Shown: one piece after another, positions 44,378 through 53,764 of the stretch
Layout: each line of letters starts with the position of its first letter
Position numbering within the stretch: the stretch's first letter is position 1
Source: Olivibacter sitiensis DSM 17696
Lineage (GTDB): Bacteria > Bacteroidota > Bacteroidia > Sphingobacteriales > Sphingobacteriaceae
Direction: 5' to 3'
Length of the DNA: 64,000 bases
Assembly: GCF_000427965.1 (NCBI RefSeq)
Contig: NZ_ATZA01000009.1
Coordinates: 62,001-126,000, forward strand
Notes under the pieces: generated by a model
Seen by the model: only the letters and a program-made list of their open reading frames with translations
The model's database searches: none
Told to the model about the DNA's origin: nothing
Translations under genes and position numbers: made by a program

Positions 44378-44650
44378 CTTTTTGCAGTTGTTTACCCGAA
44401 AGAGAGCGTACATTTGCATGTTTATGTGCGTTTTTTATTTATCTATAAATAAAAAACGCAAAAAATTGCATTTATGATTTGTTATTTTTAATATTGTAAA
44501 GCTAATTAACGAGCTATATTAAACCTATTGATGTCCTAACACCCTTTATGGGGTAGATTTCATGTGCAGGGGCTGCTTAAAGATGCATTGCGTTTTTGTG
44601 GATGGTGTCTTTTTTATTGCGTTTTTTGAGTTCAAATTTTACGATAAAAA
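44378..44650 (+). promoter_or_regulatory. susC-type promoter and leader upstream of anmK (leader copy C)
   Basis: It is nearly colinear with copy B from TTTTTGCAGTTGTTTACCC to AGTTCAAATTTTACGA. The promoter candidate is ATTG (44465-44468), 20 bp, TAATATTG (44489-44496). It sits 220 bp before the anmK ATG, in the right direction to drive anmK-susC4-susD4-GH9-deacetylase. It is bracketed by the direct repeats at 44327-44369 and 44658-44700, which marks it as inserted DNA. Confidence 0.6.
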
Positions 44651-44657
44651 AGAACAA

Positions 44658-44700
44658 TTAATCTATTCTTTCGTAAAAAGAAAGTCTGTTGCTCATGGTA
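44658..44700 (+). repeat. Right imperfect direct repeat flanking leader copy C
   Basis: Partner of 44327-44369. It ends 17 bp before the anmK ATG, so the natural upstream region of anmK is now separated from the propeller remnant by leader copy C. Confidence 0.6.
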
Positions 44701-44717
44701 ATCTATTAAGTTTGGGT

Positions 44718-45914
44718 ATGAACAATAATATAAATAAACTCTATTCCATAGCCCGTGCACCTGCCAGAAGAATAATCGGCCTTATGTCAGGCACCTCTTT
44801 TGACGGACTTGACGTGGCTTTGTGCGAGCTTGAGGGAGCTGGGATAGGCACAAAGGTGCAGGTGCTTCATTTTAAGACGATGGAGTATACTTCCGATTTT
44901 AAGGAAGATCTGAAGGCTGTCTTTTCCAAGAAATCAGTGGACATGGAAAAGCTGGTGCTAATGAATGCTGTTGTAGGAAAATATCATGCCGAACTGGTGC
45001 TGATGTGCCTGAAGGAATGGGGTGTTGCACCACAAGGGGTCGACTTGATTGCCAGCCACGGGCAGACTGTTTTTCACGCGCCGCGGTCCATCCATGGAAA
45101 AGCTGTGTATCCAAATGCCACTTTGCAGATCGGCGATGGCGACCATGTATCCGTTGGTACGGGCATTATCACATTGAGCGATTTCAGGCAGAAACATATC
45201 GCTGCCGGTGGTGAAGGCGCTCCTTTGGCAGTTTATGGCGACTACCTGATTTTCTCGGACCCACTGGAGAACCGTGTACTATTAAATATTGGCGGTATCG
45301 CCAATTTTACGTATTTGCCCTCGGGGTTTAGATCGGATGAAGTGTTTTCTACCGACGTGGGGCCTGGCAATACGCTGATGGACCAGTTTATACAACAGCA
45401 TTATCCCGGGAAGTACTTTGATGAAGATGCCAAAATCGCCTATTCGGGTACGGTCAACGAGGTTTTGCTTGCGGCGCTTATGGACCATCCTTTTTTCATG
45501 TTGCCAGTTCCCAAAACTACCGGGCCGGAGCTGTTCAATCTGGCTTATCTGGAAAATGCCATGGCAGCCAGTGGACAGGCAAACATGACCAATGAGGATA
45601 TAATGGCAACCCTGTGCCGTTTCTCGGCCCAAGCAATTGCTTTTTCCCTGCTGCAATATGGCGGACAATCCGACTTTGAAGTCTATTTAAGTGGCGGGGG
45701 GGCACACAATCCTTTACTACTGGCGCATATCGGCAATATTCTGGGGAAGTCTTTGGAAAAGACTACTGCGCAGTTGGGAATTAATCCGGACGCCAAGGAA
45801 GCCGTACTGTTCGCCGTATTGGCCAATGAAACAATGGCCGGATCGAATATTGAATTTCCGAAGGACGGAGCTATACCATCGGTAACGATGGGAAAAATCA
45901 GCTTTCCTATATAG
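44718..45914 (+). CDS. anmK: Anhydro-N-acetylmuramic acid kinase
   Basis: 398 residues from the ATG at 44718 (MNNNINKLYS). It phosphorylates 1,6-anhydro-MurNAc with ring opening to MurNAc-6-P in the cytoplasm. Visible: the phosphate-binding start GLMSGTSFDGLD (21-32), SHGQTVFHAP, the base in FSTDVGPGNTLMD (D213), and the sugar-kinase segment VYLSGGGAHNPLL near the C-terminus. Length fits (about 370-400). A longer frame from 44562 runs through the inserted leader and is not credible as protein. It is the first gene of a probable operon (43 bp to susC4), and MurQ, which uses its product, lies 7 kb downstream. Confidence 0.95.
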   Translation: MNNNINKLYSIARAPARRIIGLMSGTSFDGLDVALCELEGAGIGTKVQVLHFKTMEYTSDFKEDLKAVFSKKSVDMEKLVLMNAVVGKYHAELVLMCLKEWGVAPQGVDLIASHGQTVFHAPRSIHGKAVYPNATLQIGDGDHVSVGTGIITLSDFRQKHIAAGGEGAPLAVYGDYLIFSDPLENRVLLNIGGIANFTYLPSGFRSDEVFSTDVGPGNTLMDQFIQQHYPGKYFDEDAKIAYSGTVNEVLLAALMDHPFFMLPVPKTTGPELFNLAYLENAMAASGQANMTNEDIMATLCRFSAQAIAFSLLQYGGQSDFEVYLSGGGAHNPLLLAHIGNILGKSLEKTTAQLGINPDAKEAVLFAVLANETMAGSNIEFPKDGAIPSVTMGKISFPI

Positions 45915-45957
45915 ATGGATCTTTTTCAATCATCAACAACAATAAAACTTTAACACT

Positions 45958-48900
45958 ATGGTTATATCTTTCAAATTCAAACAGGTTTGTTTTGTTTGCG
46001 TCATCCTTTTTTGCAGTTGGGTGTATGCAGGGCAAGTATTAGGACAGACGAGGTATGTAATAAAAGGAATCGTCAAGGATAGATTAGATCAAACTCCTTT
46101 GTCCGGAGTGTCGGTAAAAATCGACAATACCGTTATCGGCACGGTCACCAATGTCCGGGGGGAGTTTGAGCTAAACGTAAGCTTGGTGCCGGCAAGCTAT
46201 ACCATCAGATACGCCCTCATTGGGTATGCGGCTTATGTCGATAAAGTCCAGCTAGGCAGCGAAGCGACGATCAATAGGGAGATCCTTTTGCGGGAAGACG
46301 TCTCCCGTATGGACGAAGTGGTAGTAACGGGCACGGCTGTTGCAACCAGCAAACGGGAATTGGGGAATGCCATTTCTTCGGTCAATGCGCGTGATTTTGA
46401 GAACAGTGCAGCAACATCCATTGACCAGGCTTTGAGCGGGAAAATATCCGGAGCGCAGATTACCCAGAATTCGGGAAACCCTGCCGGAGGTATCAGCGTG
46501 AGGTTGAGAGGTACCAGTACCGTAGTAGGATCCGGAGATCCGCTATATATCGTTGATGGTGTCATTATCAACAACAATTCTACTGAGCTATTGGATCTGG
46601 GGGGGTATGCCCAAAACAGGTTGGTAGATATCAATCCAAATGATGTAGAACGCATAGAGATCATAAAGGGCGCCGCCGCTGCCGCCATCTACGGATCCAG
46701 GGCAAGCAATGGGGTAGTACAGATTTTCACCAAGAAAGGAAAGGAAGGAAAGCCAGTCATTACGTTTTCTACCCAACTGAGGACCAATACCGTCAGGAAA
46801 ACACTCCCATACAATACTTATCCATATATTTTTGACAATACCGCGGCCGACGACCTAAGCCAAACGGCGGTCGAACGGTACGATTTTCAGAGCGATATTT
46901 TCCGAACAGGCCTTGGTACCGAAAGTAACGTCTCCGTCGCTGGGGGAACGGCGCAGACCCAATACTATTTCAGCGGGAGCTATATGGGCAATCAGGGGAT
47001 CATAGATCAGACAAATTTTAAACGTGGCGGCGTGAGGCTACGCATCGATCAAAATTTGGGAAATAAGATCAAAGTCGGCATAGGGGCAAACTATGTCTTA
47101 AGCACCAGTGCGGAAATCCCCAATGGGGGGATGGAAGAAGCTTATGGCGCTTTGACGGGTTTTATATTCAGCAATAACTTTGTCAACCCATATCCCGATC
47201 CCGTGACAGAGATATATCCCTCCACGGCACCTTCATCGGTAGTGAGAAGGACTAATCCATTGGAGGCTATCAACCGTTTCGACTTTGGCCAAAGGACCGG
47301 CCGCTTTATAGGCAATTTCAATATTCAGGCAACCCCGGTAGAAGGGCTTTCCATAAACTATGTCTTGGGCTATGATAATGCCACACAGATTGGCACGGGC
47401 TACATCCCCGTGGGCAATACCACCCCCACTTATGATGGCGGCTATTCCAGAAGGGCAGACCAGACCACTTATCTGCTTAACAATGATCTGAACATTGCCT
47501 ATGAAAAGCAGGTAAATGGCTGGCTAAAATCTTCAACAGGGCTTGGGGCTACTTATCAAGTCGAAAAGATTTATTCTACCAACCTTACAGCCACCCAACT
47601 TGGTCTAATCGGGCAGACGATAGATAATGGCGCCACCATCGTGGCTTCGGAGAACCGGAGTGACATCAATATTTTTGGTGCCTTTGTGCAGCAGACCTTC
47701 GGCATCAGGGACAAACTGTTCGTGACAGGCGCTTTACGGTATGATGAATCATCCGTGTTTGGATCGGAAGATAGGGCGCAGTTCTACCCCAAGGCAAGTG
47801 TCAGTTATTCGTTATCTGATGAGGCTTTTTGGCAAAACGGAAGTGTCCTAAATGTCGTGTCCAATTTCAAGGTGAGGGCTTCTTATGGGCAAGCGGGAAA
47901 TATGAGCGCTATCGGTGCTTATGCCAGGTTAAGCAATTACGATCCGGTTTCCTTTTCTGGACAGCCGGGTGTTGTGTCCCCCAGCTTATTGGGCAATTTG
48001 GGCATTAAGCCGGAAAGACAGACGGAGATGGAATTTGGTACGGACATAGGCTTTTTCAACGATCGTTTGGGACTCGAGTTTACCTACTATAACAAGGATG
48101 TGAAAGATTTGTTATTCTCGGTTAATTTACCGCCTACATCCGGCTATGGCAGTCAACTTCAGAATATAGGCACGATGACCAATAAGGGATTTGAGTTGCT
48201 CTTGCGAGGTGCCCCCGTTCAGAAGGAGAATTTCACGTGGAATGCTACGGCTACTTTTTCCAAGAATAAAAACGAAGTGAACGATATTCCCGGTGGTATG
48301 TTGGCCTTTTCAGGCGGGTTTGGGCAAGTGGCTGCAGTGAACGGCTATCCACTTGGTACTTTTTATTCCACTTATTTTGCCAGGAATGAAGACGGATCTC
48401 TTTTGTTGAATGCAGCTGGTTTACCGCAAACCGAACAGGCGGGAAGAAATGCCGATGGACAGCCAACGGGCGGTAACCTGAGTAAGGTAATCGGAGATCC
48501 CAATCCGGCTTGGATAGCCTCCTTGATCAATGAGTTTAATGTTGGCAAGAATCTTTCATTTCGTGCGCAACTGGATGCTTCTTACGGAGGCGATGTTTTC
48601 AACTTTACCAGAAGAGTGGGAGAACGTAACCTGTACGGTGGTCTGGAAGGATATGAGGCCGAACTGAGGGGTGAGGTGCCCAAAGGGACTTCCGCTGCGC
48701 TGTGGAGCATATTCGAGAACTGGATCGAGGATGGTTCTTATGTGAAGTTGAGGGAAGTTTCCGTCTCTTATACCCTACGGCCTAAGTTCTTGGGAACGGG
48801 CAATATGCGGCTTAGCCTGGCAGGCAGGAACCTGTTCTCGATAGATGACTACAGCGGTTATGATCCGGAGATCAATGCTGCAGGCCAAAGCAATGGAGTG

Positions 48901-48969
48901 CGGGGCTTCGATTTTGTGGAAGTGCCCATACCGAGAACCTTTGTGCTGGGTGTTAACATGACATTTTAA
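45958..48969 (+). CDS. SusC/RagA-type TonB-dependent receptor (pair 4)
   Basis: A 1003-residue outer-membrane importer: signal peptide to about VLGQ, N-terminal domain from YVIKGIVKDRLDQTPLSGVSV, linker DEVVVTGTAVATSKRELGNA, plug with PLYIVDGVIINNNS and IYGSRASNGVV, barrel ending VLGVNMTF. It belongs to a different SusC subgroup from pairs 2 and 3. Its place between anmK and susD4/GH9 suggests that it imports the substrate of the amino-sugar locus, for example muropeptides or chitooligomers (inference). Confidence 0.95.
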   Translation: MVISFKFKQVCFVCVILFCSWVYAGQVLGQTRYVIKGIVKDRLDQTPLSGVSVKIDNTVIGTVTNVRGEFELNVSLVPASYTIRYALIGYAAYVDKVQLGSEATINREILLREDVSRMDEVVVTGTAVATSKRELGNAISSVNARDFENSAATSIDQALSGKISGAQITQNSGNPAGGISVRLRGTSTVVGSGDPLYIVDGVIINNNSTELLDLGGYAQNRLVDINPNDVERIEIIKGAAAAAIYGSRASNGVVQIFTKKGKEGKPVITFSTQLRTNTVRKTLPYNTYPYIFDNTAADDLSQTAVERYDFQSDIFRTGLGTESNVSVAGGTAQTQYYFSGSYMGNQGIIDQTNFKRGGVRLRIDQNLGNKIKVGIGANYVLSTSAEIPNGGMEEAYGALTGFIFSNNFVNPYPDPVTEIYPSTAPSSVVRRTNPLEAINRFDFGQRTGRFIGNFNIQATPVEGLSINYVLGYDNATQIGTGYIPVGNTTPTYDGGYSRRADQTTYLLNNDLNIAYEKQVNGWLKSSTGLGATYQVEKIYSTNLTATQLGLIGQTIDNGATIVASENRSDINIFGAFVQQTFGIRDKLFVTGALRYDESSVFGSEDRAQFYPKASVSYSLSDEAFWQNGSVLNVVSNFKVRASYGQAGNMSAIGAYARLSNYDPVSFSGQPGVVSPSLLGNLGIKPERQTEMEFGTDIGFFNDRLGLEFTYYNKDVKDLLFSVNLPPTSGYGSQLQNIGTMTNKGFELLLRGAPVQKENFTWNATATFSKNKNEVNDIPGGMLAFSGGFGQVAAVNGYPLGTFYSTYFARNEDGSLLLNAAGLPQTEQAGRNADGQPTGGNLSKVIGDPNPAWIASLINEFNVGKNLSFRAQLDASYGGDVFNFTRRVGERNLYGGLEGYEAELRGEVPKGTSAALWSIFENWIEDGSYVKLREVSVSYTLRPKFLGTGNMRLSLAGRNLFSIDDYSGYDPEINAAGQSNGVRGFDFVEVPIPRTFVLGVNMTF

Positions 48970-49016
48970 TGTCTTTTGTTGAAAGGACATAATTATTAAG
49001 GATAAATTTGAAAGAT

Positions 49017-50333
49017 ATGAAAAGGTTTGTAAAATCTATTTTTTGGCTCGCTATTTTGATATGTTCTGCCCTGTTTTCAGGGTGCGAAATGGATACAGTA
49101 AATCCGAACAATCCCACAGACGCCGAAGTATTGAGCACGCAGGAGGGTATTGTAGCACTTAGCATAGGCGTAAGGCAGTTTTACGCTACCTCGGGCATTG
49201 AAGCACTGTATCTGTACCAAGGAGTGACAGGCCGGGAGACAAAAGGCATCGCTACTTTTACCAATGTGCTGGAACTAGGGGCCGGGGGAAGCGCCATTCC
49301 TAACAATAATTCGAGCATTTTGAATCTGTGGCTGCGCATGCAGCGCATTATGAGCATGAGCGAAGATATCGTCGAATATGCCCCTCAGATTTCGGGTATC
49401 GACCCAGCTCTATTGAGCGGGATCGTAGCCCATGCCAAGCTGTTCAAGGCCATGGCACTTGGGGGCTTGGCTACAGCCTTTGAGCAGGCTAATTTGGCTA
49501 CCAGTACGACCGAGAATGTCACTTTTGTGCCGAGGCAGCAGGTACTTGAAGAAGCTGTACGTCTGCTGGATGAAGCCATCTCGTCCGTTGCCGCCACTCC
49601 TCCTTCCGGTGCTTTTACCACATTGGTGGCCGGCAGTTCGTTCGATTTGCAAAACGTGCTTTATGCCTACAGTGCGCGATATAATCTCATGGCGGGCAAT
49701 TACCAGGCCGCCCTGGATAGGGCCAATCAAGTAAACCTGTCCGGGAGGAGTGAATTTGAATATAATACGCAAAGCATCAATCCTATCTGGGATTACCTGG
49801 TCACACAGAATTACTATAAGCCAAGGGCCGGTTTTGGTTTGCCTGCGGGGCTGTTCTACGAAGATGATCAGCGTTTGTCTTTCTATATGGGGGGTGAAGA
49901 CGTAGTGGTTGACGGCGATGTCATAAAAAGTATAAACGGCTTTTTTACCGAGCAAATGAGCTCTATTCCGGTCTTTCTGCCCGATGAAATGAAACTGATC
50001 AAAGCGGAAGCAATATTGCGGAATAACGGAGAGATAACCGAGGCGCTGGCCCTAATAAATGAAGTACGTACCCAAACTTCGGGAGATGTTTTTGGCGTAT
50101 ATGCCGGATTGCCCCCTTACAGTGGAGATATAACGCAAGAAGCCTTGTTGCTGGAGGTGTATCGTCAACGCTGTGCAGAGCTCTATTTGACGGGACAAAA
50201 AGTGGAGGATAGCCGTCGTTTTGGAAGGCCGGGGCCACCGACTAGTACCGAAGAGCGCAATCGTAATTTTTATCCTTATCCCGATCAGGAAAGGCTAAAC
50301 AATCCCAATACACCTGCAGATCCGGAGATTTAA
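49017..50333 (+). CDS. SusD/RagB family lipoprotein (pair 4)
   Basis: About 438 residues from the ATG at 49017; an upstream TTG at 49008 is less likely. Lipobox LFSGC (C23) followed by EMDTVNPNNPTDAE. The N-terminal segment VLSTQEGIVALSIGVRQFY and the C-terminal LEVYRQRCAELYLTGQKVEDSRRFGRP are SusD hallmarks. It pairs with SusC 4. Only 4 bp separate its stop from the GH9 start, so the operon continues. Confidence 0.93.
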   Translation: MKRFVKSIFWLAILICSALFSGCEMDTVNPNNPTDAEVLSTQEGIVALSIGVRQFYATSGIEALYLYQGVTGRETKGIATFTNVLELGAGGSAIPNNNSSILNLWLRMQRIMSMSEDIVEYAPQISGIDPALLSGIVAHAKLFKAMALGGLATAFEQANLATSTTENVTFVPRQQVLEEAVRLLDEAISSVAATPPSGAFTTLVAGSSFDLQNVLYAYSARYNLMAGNYQAALDRANQVNLSGRSEFEYNTQSINPIWDYLVTQNYYKPRAGFGLPAGLFYEDDQRLSFYMGGEDVVVDGDVIKSINGFFTEQMSSIPVFLPDEMKLIKAEAILRNNGEITEALALINEVRTQTSGDVFGVYAGLPPYSGDITQEALLLEVYRQRCAELYLTGQKVEDSRRFGRPGPPTSTEERNRNFYPYPDQERLNNPNTPADPEI

Positions 50334-50337
50334 CTGT

Positions 50338-52167
50338 ATGCAGATGATGAGAGTTCATAGAGGTGTTTTGGCTATATTCGTAGTTGCAGTGCTTATAGGG
50401 CAAGCTTGTTCGAGCTTGCCCAAAAACAAGCAGGAGGCTTATATTCGCATCAATCAATTGGGCTATACGCCAAAGGGAATTAAAGTTGTGGTACTGGGCA
50501 TGAAGTCCTCGCAAAAAATAGGTGAATTTGAGCTGGTAGACGCGAGAAGCAATAAGACGGTGTTTAACGGCGATGCCGGAGAGGCGTTCGGAGCCTACGG
50601 GCCATTCCAAGAAAGCTATCGGCTTCGTTTCTCCCAGTTTACAGATACGGGTACCTTTTACATCCGCGTAGGTAAAAGCCGTTCACAGGCATTCAGAATT
50701 GCCTCGGATGTGTACAAGGGTGCCGCCGATTTTGCCTTGCGCTATTTGAGGCAGCAGCGCACCTTGTTCAATCCCTACCTGAAAGATAGTTGCCATACAC
50801 ATGACGGCTTTACCTTGTATGCCGCGCAGGCCGGTCTTCCCGATAGTACGAAGATAGACGTCGGAGGTGGTTGGCATGACGCATCCGATTATCTGCAGTA
50901 TTCGACTACTTCGGCCAATGCCACTTACCACTTGTTGGCCGCATATCGCGATTTCCCCGAAGTTTTTGGCGATGACAAACAAGCCAATGGTTTAGACGGT
51001 GGAAACGGTAGGGCCGATGTGTTGGATGAGGCAAAATGGGGATTGGATTGGTTGCTGAAGATGCATCCCGAACCCCATCTTCTGTTCAACCAAATAGCCG
51101 ACGATAGGGACCATGCAGGTATGCGGATGCCCAGCGAGGACTCGCTGTATGGTCGGGGGTATGAGCGTCCGGTCTATTTTATCGATGGCAAACCACAACA
51201 AAGGGGAAAGTTCGTGAACAATACCACTGGGACAAGCTCTACCGCCGCCAAGTTTACCAGTGCATTCAATTTGGGAAGTGCTTTGTTCGAGACCATAGAT
51301 AAAGAATACGCCGATCACTTGCGTAGCAAAGCTATCAGCGCATATGCCTTTGCTAAATTGATGCCAGGAGCGACACAGACGGTCTCCGTAAAATCACCTT
51401 ATATCTATGCAGAAGATAATTGGATGGATGATATGGAATTGGCCGCGGCTACCAATTGGCTTGTCACGGGACAGAAGCAGTTTGCAGACGAAGCGCTGCA
51501 CTTCGCCCGGCAGGAGAAGATAACACCCTGGCTCGAAACGGATACGGCAGCCCATTATCAGTGGTATCCCTTCATCAATATTGGGCACTATGAACTGGCC
51601 AAGCAGCTGAGAGGAAACGAAAGGGAAGAAATTATTTCTTATTACAAAGAAGGTATAGAAAAGGTGTGGGACAGGGCAAGTAAGAATGCCTTCTATAGGG
51701 GAGTGCCCTTCATTTGGTGCAGCAATAACCTCACGGTTTCATTTGCCATGCAGTGTTTGTGGTACAGGAATTTGTCGAGCGATGAAGCCTATTCCGAATT
51801 GGAGCAAGCTAATTTTGATTGGTTGTTTGGCTGCAACCCTTGGGGAACCGGTATGGTATATGGCTTGCCAGCAGATGGCGACACGCCCACAGATCCTCAT
51901 TCTGCATTTACGCATTTGGGGAACTTCCCCATTGACGGTGGTCTAGTAGACGGACCTGTATATGGTAGTATATTCAATAGCCTTATCGGTATCCAATTGG
52001 TGAAACCAGATGAATACGCGCCTTTTCAGTCGAATCTTGCTGTCTATCACGATGATTATGGCGATTATAGTACCAATGAGCCCACTATGGATGGAACAGC
52101 ATCGCTGGTTTATTTATTGGCAAGTAAAGAAGGGGAGTCAAGGGGGGAGACTCCTGTAAAAAAGTAG
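50338..52167 (+). CDS. GH9 glycoside hydrolase lipoprotein, likely the N-terminal part of a split or frameshifted enzyme
   Basis: 609 residues. Lipobox IGQAC (C24), an N-terminal immunoglobulin-like domain (about 35-125, from YIRINQLGYTPKGIKVVVL), then the (alpha/alpha)6 GH9 domain with GGWHDASDY (D181 and D184) and the proton donor in STNEPTMDGTA (E581). GH9 contains cellulases but also exo-beta-glucosaminidases, and the amino-sugar setting favours the latter (inference). The frame ends GTA AAA AAG TAG. Within 52128-52167 it overlaps an open frame that runs straight into the deacetylase domain; joining them by a -1 shift would give one protein of about 843 residues. Confidence 0.9.
   Translation: MQMMRVHRGVLAIFVVAVLIGQACSSLPKNKQEAYIRINQLGYTPKGIKVVVLGMKSSQKIGEFELVDARSNKTVFNGDAGEAFGAYGPFQESYRLRFSQFTDTGTFYIRVGKSRSQAFRIASDVYKGAADFALRYLRQQRTLFNPYLKDSCHTHDGFTLYAAQAGLPDSTKIDVGGGWHDASDYLQYSTTSANATYHLLAAYRDFPEVFGDDKQANGLDGGNGRADVLDEAKWGLDWLLKMHPEPHLLFNQIADDRDHAGMRMPSEDSLYGRGYERPVYFIDGKPQQRGKFVNNTTGTSSTAAKFTSAFNLGSALFETIDKEYADHLRSKAISAYAFAKLMPGATQTVSVKSPYIYAEDNWMDDMELAAATNWLVTGQKQFADEALHFARQEKITPWLETDTAAHYQWYPFINIGHYELAKQLRGNEREEIISYYKEGIEKVWDRASKNAFYRGVPFIWCSNNLTVSFAMQCLWYRNLSSDEAYSELEQANFDWLFGCNPWGTGMVYGLPADGDTPTDPHSAFTHLGNFPIDGGLVDGPVYGSIFNSLIGIQLVKPDEYAPFQSNLAVYHDDYGDYSTNEPTMDGTASLVYLLASKEGESRGETPVKK
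52134..52167 (+). promoter_or_regulatory. Candidate -1 frameshift site: A AAA AAG heptamer before TAG
   Basis: In the GH9 frame the bases 52158-52164 are A AAA AAG, the strongest known bacterial -1 slippery heptamer, directly followed by TAG (52165-52167). Eight bases upstream is the purine block AGGGGGGAG (52141-52149), positioned like the stimulatory SD-like element of dnaX. A dyad GGAGTC (52134-52139)/GACTCC (52149-52154) brackets that block. No strong downstream stem-loop is seen. A missing base in the A6 or G6 run would have the same effect as a shift. Confidence 0.5.
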
Positions 52168-52190
52168 TCTTAGACCCTTATGGGGCCATT

Positions 52191-52868
52191 GTGCGAGGAG
52201 ATACTACAAAAAAAGAACTGGCATTGGTGTTTACAGCGGATGAATTTGGTGGTGGCGCGCGTATTATAGAAAACGTATTGGACGACAAGGATGTCAAGGC
52301 CTCCTTTTTTCTGACAGGCAGATTTTTGGATAATAAAGATAATGAGGAATTCGTTCAGAGCTTAGTGAATGCGAAACATTACGTTGGAGTGCATTCTGAT
52401 CAACATTTGCTTTATTGCGATTGGGAAGATAGAAATAAATTATTGGTGGACAAGAAGCAATTTTATAACGATTTGCAAGCAGCCTATCTCAAATTAGGAA
52501 AATTTGGTATTGATAAATCAAAAGCTTTATTATTTTTACCCCCTTACGAATGGTACAATAAGAAAATTGTGGATTGGACGAAGGAACAGGGGCTTAAATT
52601 AGTGAATTTTTCGGTGGGTACGCTGAGCACGGCCGACTATACCTATCCTGAGATGGGAAATAGATACCGCGATAATGAGACCATTTGGCGTTCGATAATG
52701 AAATACGAAGAAAATAGCAACGGCGGGTTGAATGGCTTTTTCCTGCTTATTCACCTTGGGGCTGATCCTAGGAGACAAAAAGGATTTTATGAAGAATTAC
52801 CTCGTCTGATCAAAAAGCTGACAGAAAAAGGATATGTCTTTAGAAGAATGGACGAATTGATAAATTAA
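52191..52868 (+). CDS. NodB-type polysaccharide deacetylase domain, likely C-terminal part of the GH9 protein
   Basis: 225 residues if begun at the GTG at 52191. Carbohydrate esterase 4 motifs are recognisable: the metal/base region FTADEFGGG (in place of TFDD), HSDQH (HxxxH type), LPPYEW, and the late LLIHLG. It would remove N- or O-acetyl groups from an amino-sugar chain. It has no signal peptide, so as a separate protein it would be cytoplasmic, which makes no sense for such an enzyme; this favours fusion to GH9. The frame is open upstream to 52128, and the residues KKVVLDPYGAIVRGD between 52158 and the GTG look like a domain linker. Base composition is lower in G+C than in the GH9 part. 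Confidence 0.8.
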   Translation: MRGDTTKKELALVFTADEFGGGARIIENVLDDKDVKASFFLTGRFLDNKDNEEFVQSLVNAKHYVGVHSDQHLLYCDWEDRNKLLVDKKQFYNDLQAAYLKLGKFGIDKSKALLFLPPYEWYNKKIVDWTKEQGLKLVNFSVGTLSTADYTYPEMGNRYRDNETIWRSIMKYEENSNGGLNGFFLLIHLGADPRRQKGFYEELPRLIKKLTEKGYVFRRMDELIN

Positions 52869-52948
52869 ATTTTGCGTTTTTTAGCGGTTTTTGTTTATAT
52901 TAACGTATAAAAATGCATATCTTGCAACATTGTTTTTTTAAGTAAATC
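52869..52948 (+). promoter_or_regulatory. Probable promoter region of murQ
   Basis: An 80-bp AT-rich gap. TTTG at 52890-52893 is followed after 23 bp by ATATCTTG, a poor match to the -7 box. murQ may have its own promoter or be read from the anmK operon; no terminator is seen between. Confidence 0.3.
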
Positions 52949-53764
52949 ATGATTAACACGACGGAGAGAGATTCCAACTACAGTGATTTAGACAAGATGT
53001 CGGTTGGCGAGCTGTTGACCAATATGAACAGGGAGGATCAGAGTGTGCCCTTAGCGGTCGCAGCAGCTATCCCGCAGATAGAGGCGCTGGTAAAGGTGGC
53101 GACGGACAGAATGCGTAGGGGGGGCAGGATGTTTTATATAGGTGCCGGCACCAGCGGACGTCTTGGTGTATTGGATGCATCGGAGTGCCCTCCGACCTTC
53201 GGGGTTCCGTATGACTGGATCGTGGGCATCATAGCAGGTGGTGACATAGCGATCAGAAAGGCAGTGGAGTTTGCCGAGGATGATATGGAACAAGCCTGGC
53301 AAGACTTGCAGGTATACGGTATAGATGAAAACGATATCGTGGTAGGTATTGCCGCCTCTGGCACGACGCCTTATGTAATAGGTGGTCTGGAGGCTGCCAA
53401 CGCGGCAGGGATAGCCACCGGTTGCATCGTGTGCAATTACGACACCCCCATAGCTGCGGTGGCCGAGTATCCGGTAGAGGTTGTGCCAGGCCCGGAGTTC
53501 GTGACGGGTTCTACGCGGATGAAGGCAGGCACTGCCCAAAAGTTGGTGTTGAATATGCTGAGTACGGCGGTTATGATCCGGCTAGGTCGTGTGAAGGGGA
53601 ACAAGATGGTTGACATGCAGTTGACCAACCACAAGCTGTTCGAGCGCGGGCTACGCATCGTGATGCAGGAAACGGGAGTAGATGAGCCTTTGGCCAAGTC
53701 GCTGCTGGAAGAATATGGCAGCGTACGCAAGACGATAGAGCAGGTGAAAGCATTGGAGAAATAA
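52949..53764 (+). CDS. murQ: N-acetylmuramic acid 6-phosphate etherase
   Basis: 271 residues, cytoplasmic. It cleaves the D-lactyl ether of MurNAc-6-P giving GlcNAc-6-P and D-lactate. The SIS-fold sugar-phosphate loop is GAGTSGRLG (66-73), the catalytic Glu is in DASECPPTF (E79), and a second acidic residue is in EFAEDDMEQ (about E110). FVTGSTRMKAGTAQK is another signature. Length is typical for Bacteroidota. It acts directly after AnmK (anmK, 7 kb upstream) and is followed 31 bp later by the symporter gene. Confidence 0.96.
   Translation: MINTTERDSNYSDLDKMSVGELLTNMNREDQSVPLAVAAAIPQIEALVKVATDRMRRGGRMFYIGAGTSGRLGVLDASECPPTFGVPYDWIVGIIAGGDIAIRKAVEFAEDDMEQAWQDLQVYGIDENDIVVGIAASGTTPYVIGGLEAANAAGIATGCIVCNYDTPIAAVAEYPVEVVPGPEFVTGSTRMKAGTAQKLVLNMLSTAVMIRLGRVKGNKMVDMQLTNHKLFERGLRIVMQETGVDEPLAKSLLEEYGSVRKTIEQVKALEK

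Follow-up and report, generated by a model that had tools for sequence, protein, structure and literature searches.

A conserved slippery heptamer with an internal Shine-Dalgarno-like element points to a -1 programmed frameshift joining a GH9 hydrolase and a NodB deacetylase in Olivibacter sitiensis and its relatives

In the window analysed in this study, the whole stretch of 64,000 nucleotides (nt) from Olivibacter sitiensis DSM 17696 (contig NZ_ATZA01000009.1, positions 62,001 to 126,000), a family GH9 glycoside hydrolase is followed, in the -1 frame, by a polysaccharide deacetylase of the CE4/NodB type. The sequence evidence indicates that the two very probably form a single gene, in which a -1 programmed ribosomal frameshift stimulated by an internal Shine-Dalgarno (SD)-like element gives rise to GH9 alone and to a GH9-deacetylase fusion. 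An earlier note on this DNA had proposed such a shift at the heptamer A AAA AAG, and the comparison of 151 loci presented here supports it. The elements of the junction are the following:

50338-52167, forward strand: GH9 hydrolase in the 0 frame, 609 amino acids (aa), read directly; last codons GTA AAA AAG TAG (VKK and stop); its parts, in order, are a hydrophobic N-terminus (by eye an export signal), a CelD_N Ig-like domain and the GH9 catalytic domain
52140-52149, forward strand: internal SD-like element AAGGGGGGAG, with 8 nt between its GGAG and the heptamer
52158-52164, forward strand: slippery heptamer A AAA AAG, with the 0-frame codons AAA AAG at 52159-52164
52165-52167, forward strand: 0-frame stop TAG, abutting the slippery codons
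52128-52868, forward strand: -1 frame with the CE4/NodB polysaccharide deacetylase, open from 52128, its stop ending at 52868; neither an ATG ahead of the domain nor a signal peptide was seen

Direct reading bore out the earlier description of the two frames, that is, a GH9 frame ending in GTA AAA AAG TAG and a NodB frame at -1, open from 52128 and devoid of a signal peptide. The shifted frame reads ...KKVVLDPYGAIVRGD... into the deacetylase, the first -1 codon of the post-shift product being 52164-52166, and the joined length is the 843 aa previously given (609+234). Pfam matches in the window were Glyco_hydro_9 (5e-68), CelD_N (1.8e-19) and Polysacc_deac_1 (3.2e-10). In the mechanism that we propose, most ribosomes would probably stop at the TAG following AAA AAG, releasing the exported GH9 alone. 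Some ribosomes would pause while the tail of the 16S rRNA is paired with the internal GGAG(G), some 8-10 nt behind the slippery codons; both lysine tRNAs would then move back from AAA AAG onto AAA AAA. Reading on at -1, these ribosomes would extend the exported GH9 by the CE4 deacetylase, to 843 aa. We infer the ribosomal nature of the slip, its efficiency, the ratio of the two products and a role of SD pairing in vivo from sequence comparison.

A GH9 search over 399 genomes of the family found a close homologue, at an E value of 1e-100 or better, in 150 of them. The locus set (n = 151) comprises 150 loci from 149 family genomes (G391 contributing two and G350 being left out) and one locus from another family. 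In-frame GH9-NodB fusions accounted for 75 loci, whereas NodB lay at -1 in 68 and at +1 in none; seven loci had no adjacent NodB and one (L102) was broken, with NodB in the same frame after a stop. L102 and two -1 loci with a frame break inside NodB (L022 and L096) were left out of the slippery classes. The remaining -1 loci fall into 51 with A AAA AAG and an A run below nine (49 with six A and two with seven, hereafter the A6 class) and 15 with runs of nine or ten (A9-A10), so that the unbiased count is 66 of the 68 -1 loci with either A AAA AAG or a longer run of A. In the homologue comparison, which the earlier note had set beforehand, 51 of 151 loci thus keep A AAA AAG with NodB at -1 and 75 have a single frame. 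In 48 of the 51 A6-class loci the stop comes immediately after the heptamer (28 TAA, 20 TAG); in two it lies one codon and in one twelve codons further on. The class is spread over eight genus groups of the family. At the level of sequence, this comparison demonstrates that the heptamer with its adjacent stop, the SD-like element and the -1 frame are all conserved. Among the 73 fused linkers listed (two fused loci lacking the linker motif being omitted), 62 have no A run above five and 11 contain AAAAAAG, including an in-frame A7 in two Pedobacter-group loci (L137 and L138). Linkers measure 46-50 aa in shifted loci (20 of 51 measured) and 39-50 aa in fused ones (55 of 75), lengths that cover only loci whose first NodB motif ends in DE and exclude Sphingobacterium loci with TGHD.

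The bare pattern GGAGN7-13AAAAAAGTAR occurs five times in the window's genome, the junction site included, and its reversed control three times; as a genome-wide finder it was rejected as unspecific. The motif alone is not rare, and the excess over chance lies in its fixed place at the GH9 junction. Eight genus groups of the family share this junction, as do two Pontibacter loci described below, which is more than chance would give.

The SD-like element was assessed in 24 A6-class representatives with less than 85% mutual identity. For the null, codons were redrawn keeping the protein and the gene's own codon usage, and each sequence was scored by its best duplex with the 16S tail. The mean duplex energy was -11.5 kcal/mol, versus -6.1 under synonymous recoding, and values at or below -9 were reached by 22 of the 24 representatives (Fisher 2.7e-12, a p-value that is indicative only, the representatives not being fully independent). 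By comparison, that level was attained in 0/24 at each of five internal control sites; at the position equivalent to the element, 3-4 of 43 representatives of the fused class and 1 of 8 with poly-A attained it. The earlier observation of an SD-like element eight bases upstream of A AAA AAG was thus confirmed and extended: GGAG occurs 7-14 nt before the heptamer in 51/51 A6-class loci (the consensus from -15 to -11 is GGAGG), and it exceeds the synonymous null, arguing that the element is selected in its own right. For the window alone the test gave p 0.023. The same null expects 1.4 heptamers in 24, a figure that is biased, as the class was picked for having the heptamer.

Downstream of the junction there is a weak folding tendency and no shared stem, in agreement with the earlier remark that no strong stem is seen. 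The 70 nt that follow fold slightly better than shuffled sequences (mean z -1.06, with 3/24 below -2; six control sites ranged from -0.68 to 0.19), and a comparison over three lengths gave mean z values of -0.87, -1.00 and -0.96. A downstream stem is described for dnaX and not for all prokaryotic cases (PMC4066793).

Several observations weigh against an SD-stimulated ribosomal shift. Taken singly, 10 of the 24 representatives fail to reach p 0.1 in the SD test, and their alignment revealed no consensus pair downstream, pseudoknots not having been searched for. The SD stimulator might also be weak, because the ribosomes of Bacteroidia occlude the anti-SD with bS21, bS18 and bS6 (PMC9976891). 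The patterns used for the 16S 3' end gave no match in these genomes. Pontibacter L261 retains GGAGGAGG and A AAA AAG TAG though no NodB frame follows. Finally, not every species can need both products, since plain fusions make up roughly half of the loci. Nevertheless, a prfB shift with an SD-like element is kept in 523 of 726 Bacteroidia prfB genes (72%) (PMC8710568). In our own prfB control the window genome had nothing within one mismatch of the search pattern, and the matches in 23 of 41 genomes are candidate prfB sites.

The shifted frame itself looks to be under coding constraint. It is free of stops in all 19 representatives given (of the 24), and a rough dN/dS of 0.05-0.11 was obtained at -1 for four of eight A6-class homologue pairs (dN 0.16-0.40, dS 1.5-4.5), the other four yielding no dS. 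The two frames overlap by 10-112 nt in the 66 unbroken -1 loci, and between the frame opening and the NodB domain there is no ATG in 64 of them and no ATG, GTG or TTG in 50. No start codon, near-cognates included, was found at one position common to all 24 representatives; ATT, ATC or ATA is common at codon 8 of the -1 frame, within a conserved protein stretch. In the window the earliest ATG, GTG or TTG is a GTG at 52191. Without a shared start of its own and without an export signal, the deacetylase would therefore reach the cell envelope only as a tail of GH9. As a side observation on the same representatives, the GH9 stop is TAG in 15/24, versus 3/24 at the NodB stop, and TGA in 0/24 versus 3/24; this comparison may be confounded by the next -1 codon.

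Junction state was then compared with descent on a GH9 tree built without the junction, on which the three states (A6 shift, poly-A shift and fusion) need at least 14 changes, against 46-62 in 200 shuffles, indicating that the state tracks the descent of GH9. A6 loci appear in several separate clades, Parapedobacter (g4) adjoins the window locus, fusions make up 51 of the 57 loci of the Pedobacter group g14, and 14 of the 15 A9-A10 loci belong to the Sphingobacterium group g16, the fifteenth (L168) lying in g20. In the g16 loci (L007, L097, L098, L103-L110, L112, L114 and L115) the A9-A10 run replaces GGAGG and A AAA AAG, with NodB still at -1; relatives with A11 (L010 and L163) are in frame, and L110, at -1, sits beside the in-frame L010. 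From their sequences, the Sphingobacterium poly-A loci look like a switch from ribosomal to transcriptional slippage.

These poly-A loci speak for transcriptional slippage as a rival explanation, in which RNA polymerase would add an A within the run and ordinary translation of that transcript would make the fusion. In Thermus dnaX, transcriptional realignment is reported to result from poly-A of similar length (PMC3711429), the A9-A10 representatives mostly lack the SD-like element (1/8 at or below -9), and the vicinity of L110 and the A11 locus L010 fits the same picture. However, the window and 48 other loci have only A6 and two have A7, none exceeding the cited lower bound of n>7 (PMC3711429); an A or T run above seven, the mark of this mechanism, occurs in the separate group of 15 A9-A10 loci. 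Moreover, no role in transcription is known for an SD-like element that is under selection and keeps a near-fixed spacing. Transcriptional slippage is a very improbable account of the A6 loci.

Termination followed by reinitiation, in which the SD-like element would restart ribosomes after the TAG and NodB would be made as a separate protein, is also highly improbable. The position of the element near the stop, a frame overlap of 10-112 nt as in coupled genes and the GTG at 52191 in the window would suit it. Against it stand the scarcity of start codons described above and the want of a start shared in position by the 24 representatives. In addition, the product would carry no export signal, whereas 75 of 151 relatives have NodB as a GH9 tail, and the invariant A AAA AAG would not be needed. 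As for a mutation or assembly error in a single-frame gene, the in-frame relatives with A7 (L137, L138) and A11 (L010, L163) would fit it, and the earlier note had cautioned that the loss of one base would look the same, but the chance is negligible given that 51 genomes, 24 of them below 85% mutual identity and three of these in one contig each (G002, G032 and G059), keep the -1 arrangement, that the state follows the tree, and that the downstream frame is open in 19/19 representatives and looks constrained. On this evidence error, reinitiation and, for the A6 loci, transcriptional slippage were rejected.

Natural variants offer further comparisons with the programmed ribosomal frameshift. 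Genome G007 (loci L039 and L006) has lost the in-place NodB except for a C-terminal stub and its heptamer now reads AGAAAAG; a separate NodB with its own signal-like N-terminus is encoded elsewhere in the genome; L004 has neither NodB nor heptamer, and its genome (G003) has no NodB match. Both cases serve as natural tests that favour the frameshift. A scan of named genomes, restricted to the best 80 of 535 loci, yielded 50 fusions, 16 loci at -1, 14 without a nearby NodB and none at +1. Four loci from other families (L296-L299) stand outside the classification. The set of 80 overlaps the family set (L186 and L003 share a junction), and the counts were not added. Its -1 loci include Parapedobacter composti, Sphingobacterium, Pedobacter and three Chitinophagaceae with A7 or A9, and two loci of Pontibacter (Hymenobacteraceae), L264 and L265, have GGAGG and A AAA AAG TAA with NodB at -1.

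The closest precedents are dnaX, the magnesium chelatase genes and an archaeal fucosidase. In dnaX of E. coli and other bacteria, as here, A AAA AAG is combined with an upstream SD-like stimulator, and other lineages have a poly-A version with transcriptional slippage (PMC3711429). However, dnaX has a downstream hairpin and the E. coli shift gives a shorter product, while in GH9-NodB no shared stem was found, the stop abuts the heptamer and the shift extends GH9 by a second enzyme. The GeneTack survey listed 146 candidate clusters, with magnesium chelatase, DUF111, DUF772 and spore germination protein confirmed (PMC3711429). In magnesium chelatase genes a -1 shift likewise joins two open reading frames (ORFs) that are fused in frame elsewhere, with measured efficiencies of 63, 40 and 10% (PMC3711429); the three tested cassettes carry 11, 9 and 7 A, in contrast to A6 with a selected SD-like element. 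The Saccharolobus alpha-L-fucosidase gene fucA also requires a -1 programmed frameshift to make a glycoside hydrolase (PMC8037382). It is nevertheless archaeal, and the shift yields one enzyme from an interrupted gene rather than two enzymes joined. In Bacillus subtilis cdd, the shift is helped by an SD-like element and the extension is not known to add a catalytic domain. This -1 shift at an AAG codon extends the protein as here, but it has been termed incidental (PMC5009743). The Bacteroidia prfB genes share an SD-like element by the frameshift site despite the occluded anti-SD (PMC8710568), and differ in that the shift is +1, the SD lies directly beside the site and the shift serves autoregulation of release factor 2 (RF2).

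Neither a deacetylase nor a glycoside hydrolase is mentioned in the main text of the GeneTack article, supplements and figures aside (PMC3711429), and deacetylase and hydrolase are absent from the first 300,000 of the 475,107 characters of a recoding review (PMC5009743). The open-access literature returned nothing on frameshifting together with polysaccharide utilization or on Sphingobacterium with programmed frameshift, and among the matches listed no title or abstract start was about this gene. The earlier suggestion of a new use of programmed frameshifting holds for the gene pair and not for glycosidases as such, frameshifting being known in the archaeal alpha-L-fucosidase (PMC8037382). The novelty lies in the GH9-NodB pair and in an SD stimulator among Bacteroidia, in whose ribosomes the anti-SD is hidden. 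In Bacteroidota this -1 frameshift appears to be widely conserved, in a metabolic gene that is not mobile, and relatives seem to reach the same protein output by three routes, namely a ribosomal slip, a poly-A run and plain fusion. The system offers a natural test of SD pairing as an elongation signal in ribosomes that disregard it when they initiate, and sister species allow comparison of the cost or benefit of keeping two products. Such genes would also be liable to be annotated as two, the deacetylase then resembling a cytoplasmic orphan.

The junction lies within a run of genes in the same orientation:

44562-53764, forward strand: surrounding gene run, from ORFs, with SusC/SusD and GH9/NodB identified by Pfam
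44562-45914, forward strand: anmK-like kinase, named from its sequence
45958-48969, forward strand: SusC, by Pfam
49008-50333, forward strand: SusD, by Pfam
52949-53764, forward strand: murQ-like etherase, named from its sequence

The names AnmK, MurQ and sodium-solute symporter (SSS) are those that we presume for the neighbours from their sequences. The cluster of anmK-like, SusC, SusD, GH9-NodB and murQ-like genes suggests uptake and recycling of anhydro-N-acetylmuramic acid (anhydro-MurNAc) sugars. Neighbours resembling MurQ and SSS are again present at the Sphingobacterium and Parapedobacter loci and at two of three Pontibacter loci; they were not found at Pedobacter or Chitinophagaceae loci, and the cell-wall sugar reading may therefore apply to only some of the loci. 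From the domains and neighbours we infer that the deacetylase would act on muro- or chito-oligosaccharides containing N-acetylglucosamine (GlcNAc), after which GH9, as a glucosaminidase, would free glucosamine (GlcN) and feed the AnmK-MurQ route. An unlikely extension of the frameshift model is that the shift depends on free or bS21-lacking ribosomes, so that the product ratio would read out ribosome state or growth and this control would be lost on the switch to poly-A or fusion; if true, it would place a regulatory layer on a cell-wall sugar pathway.

The predicted structure of a fused relative (L188, Sphingobacterium olei) was used for fold class only, because of its mean predicted local distance difference test score (pLDDT) of 75.7 and weak stretches in GH9. 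Its GH9 fold matched endoglucanases best, with the exo-beta-D-glucosaminidases VC0615 and PBPRA0520 lower in the list, making a cellulase-like activity possible. In an alignment of seven sequences D181, D184 and E581 of GH9, which we take to be the catalytic residues, are invariant. For the CE4 fold the matches comprised peptidoglycan GlcNAc deacetylases and a CE4 pseudoenzyme, BA3943. CE4/NodB enzymes are marked by the motifs TFDD, HS/TxxH, RxPY and a late H. Among 27 NodB sequences, HSxxH and the late H are invariant, and the window has TADE as its first motif and PPYEWYN where RxPY is expected. The first motif is TGHD in the Sphingobacterium loci L187, L189 and L190, as opposed to TGDE or TADE, a replacement that may change or abolish NodB activity.

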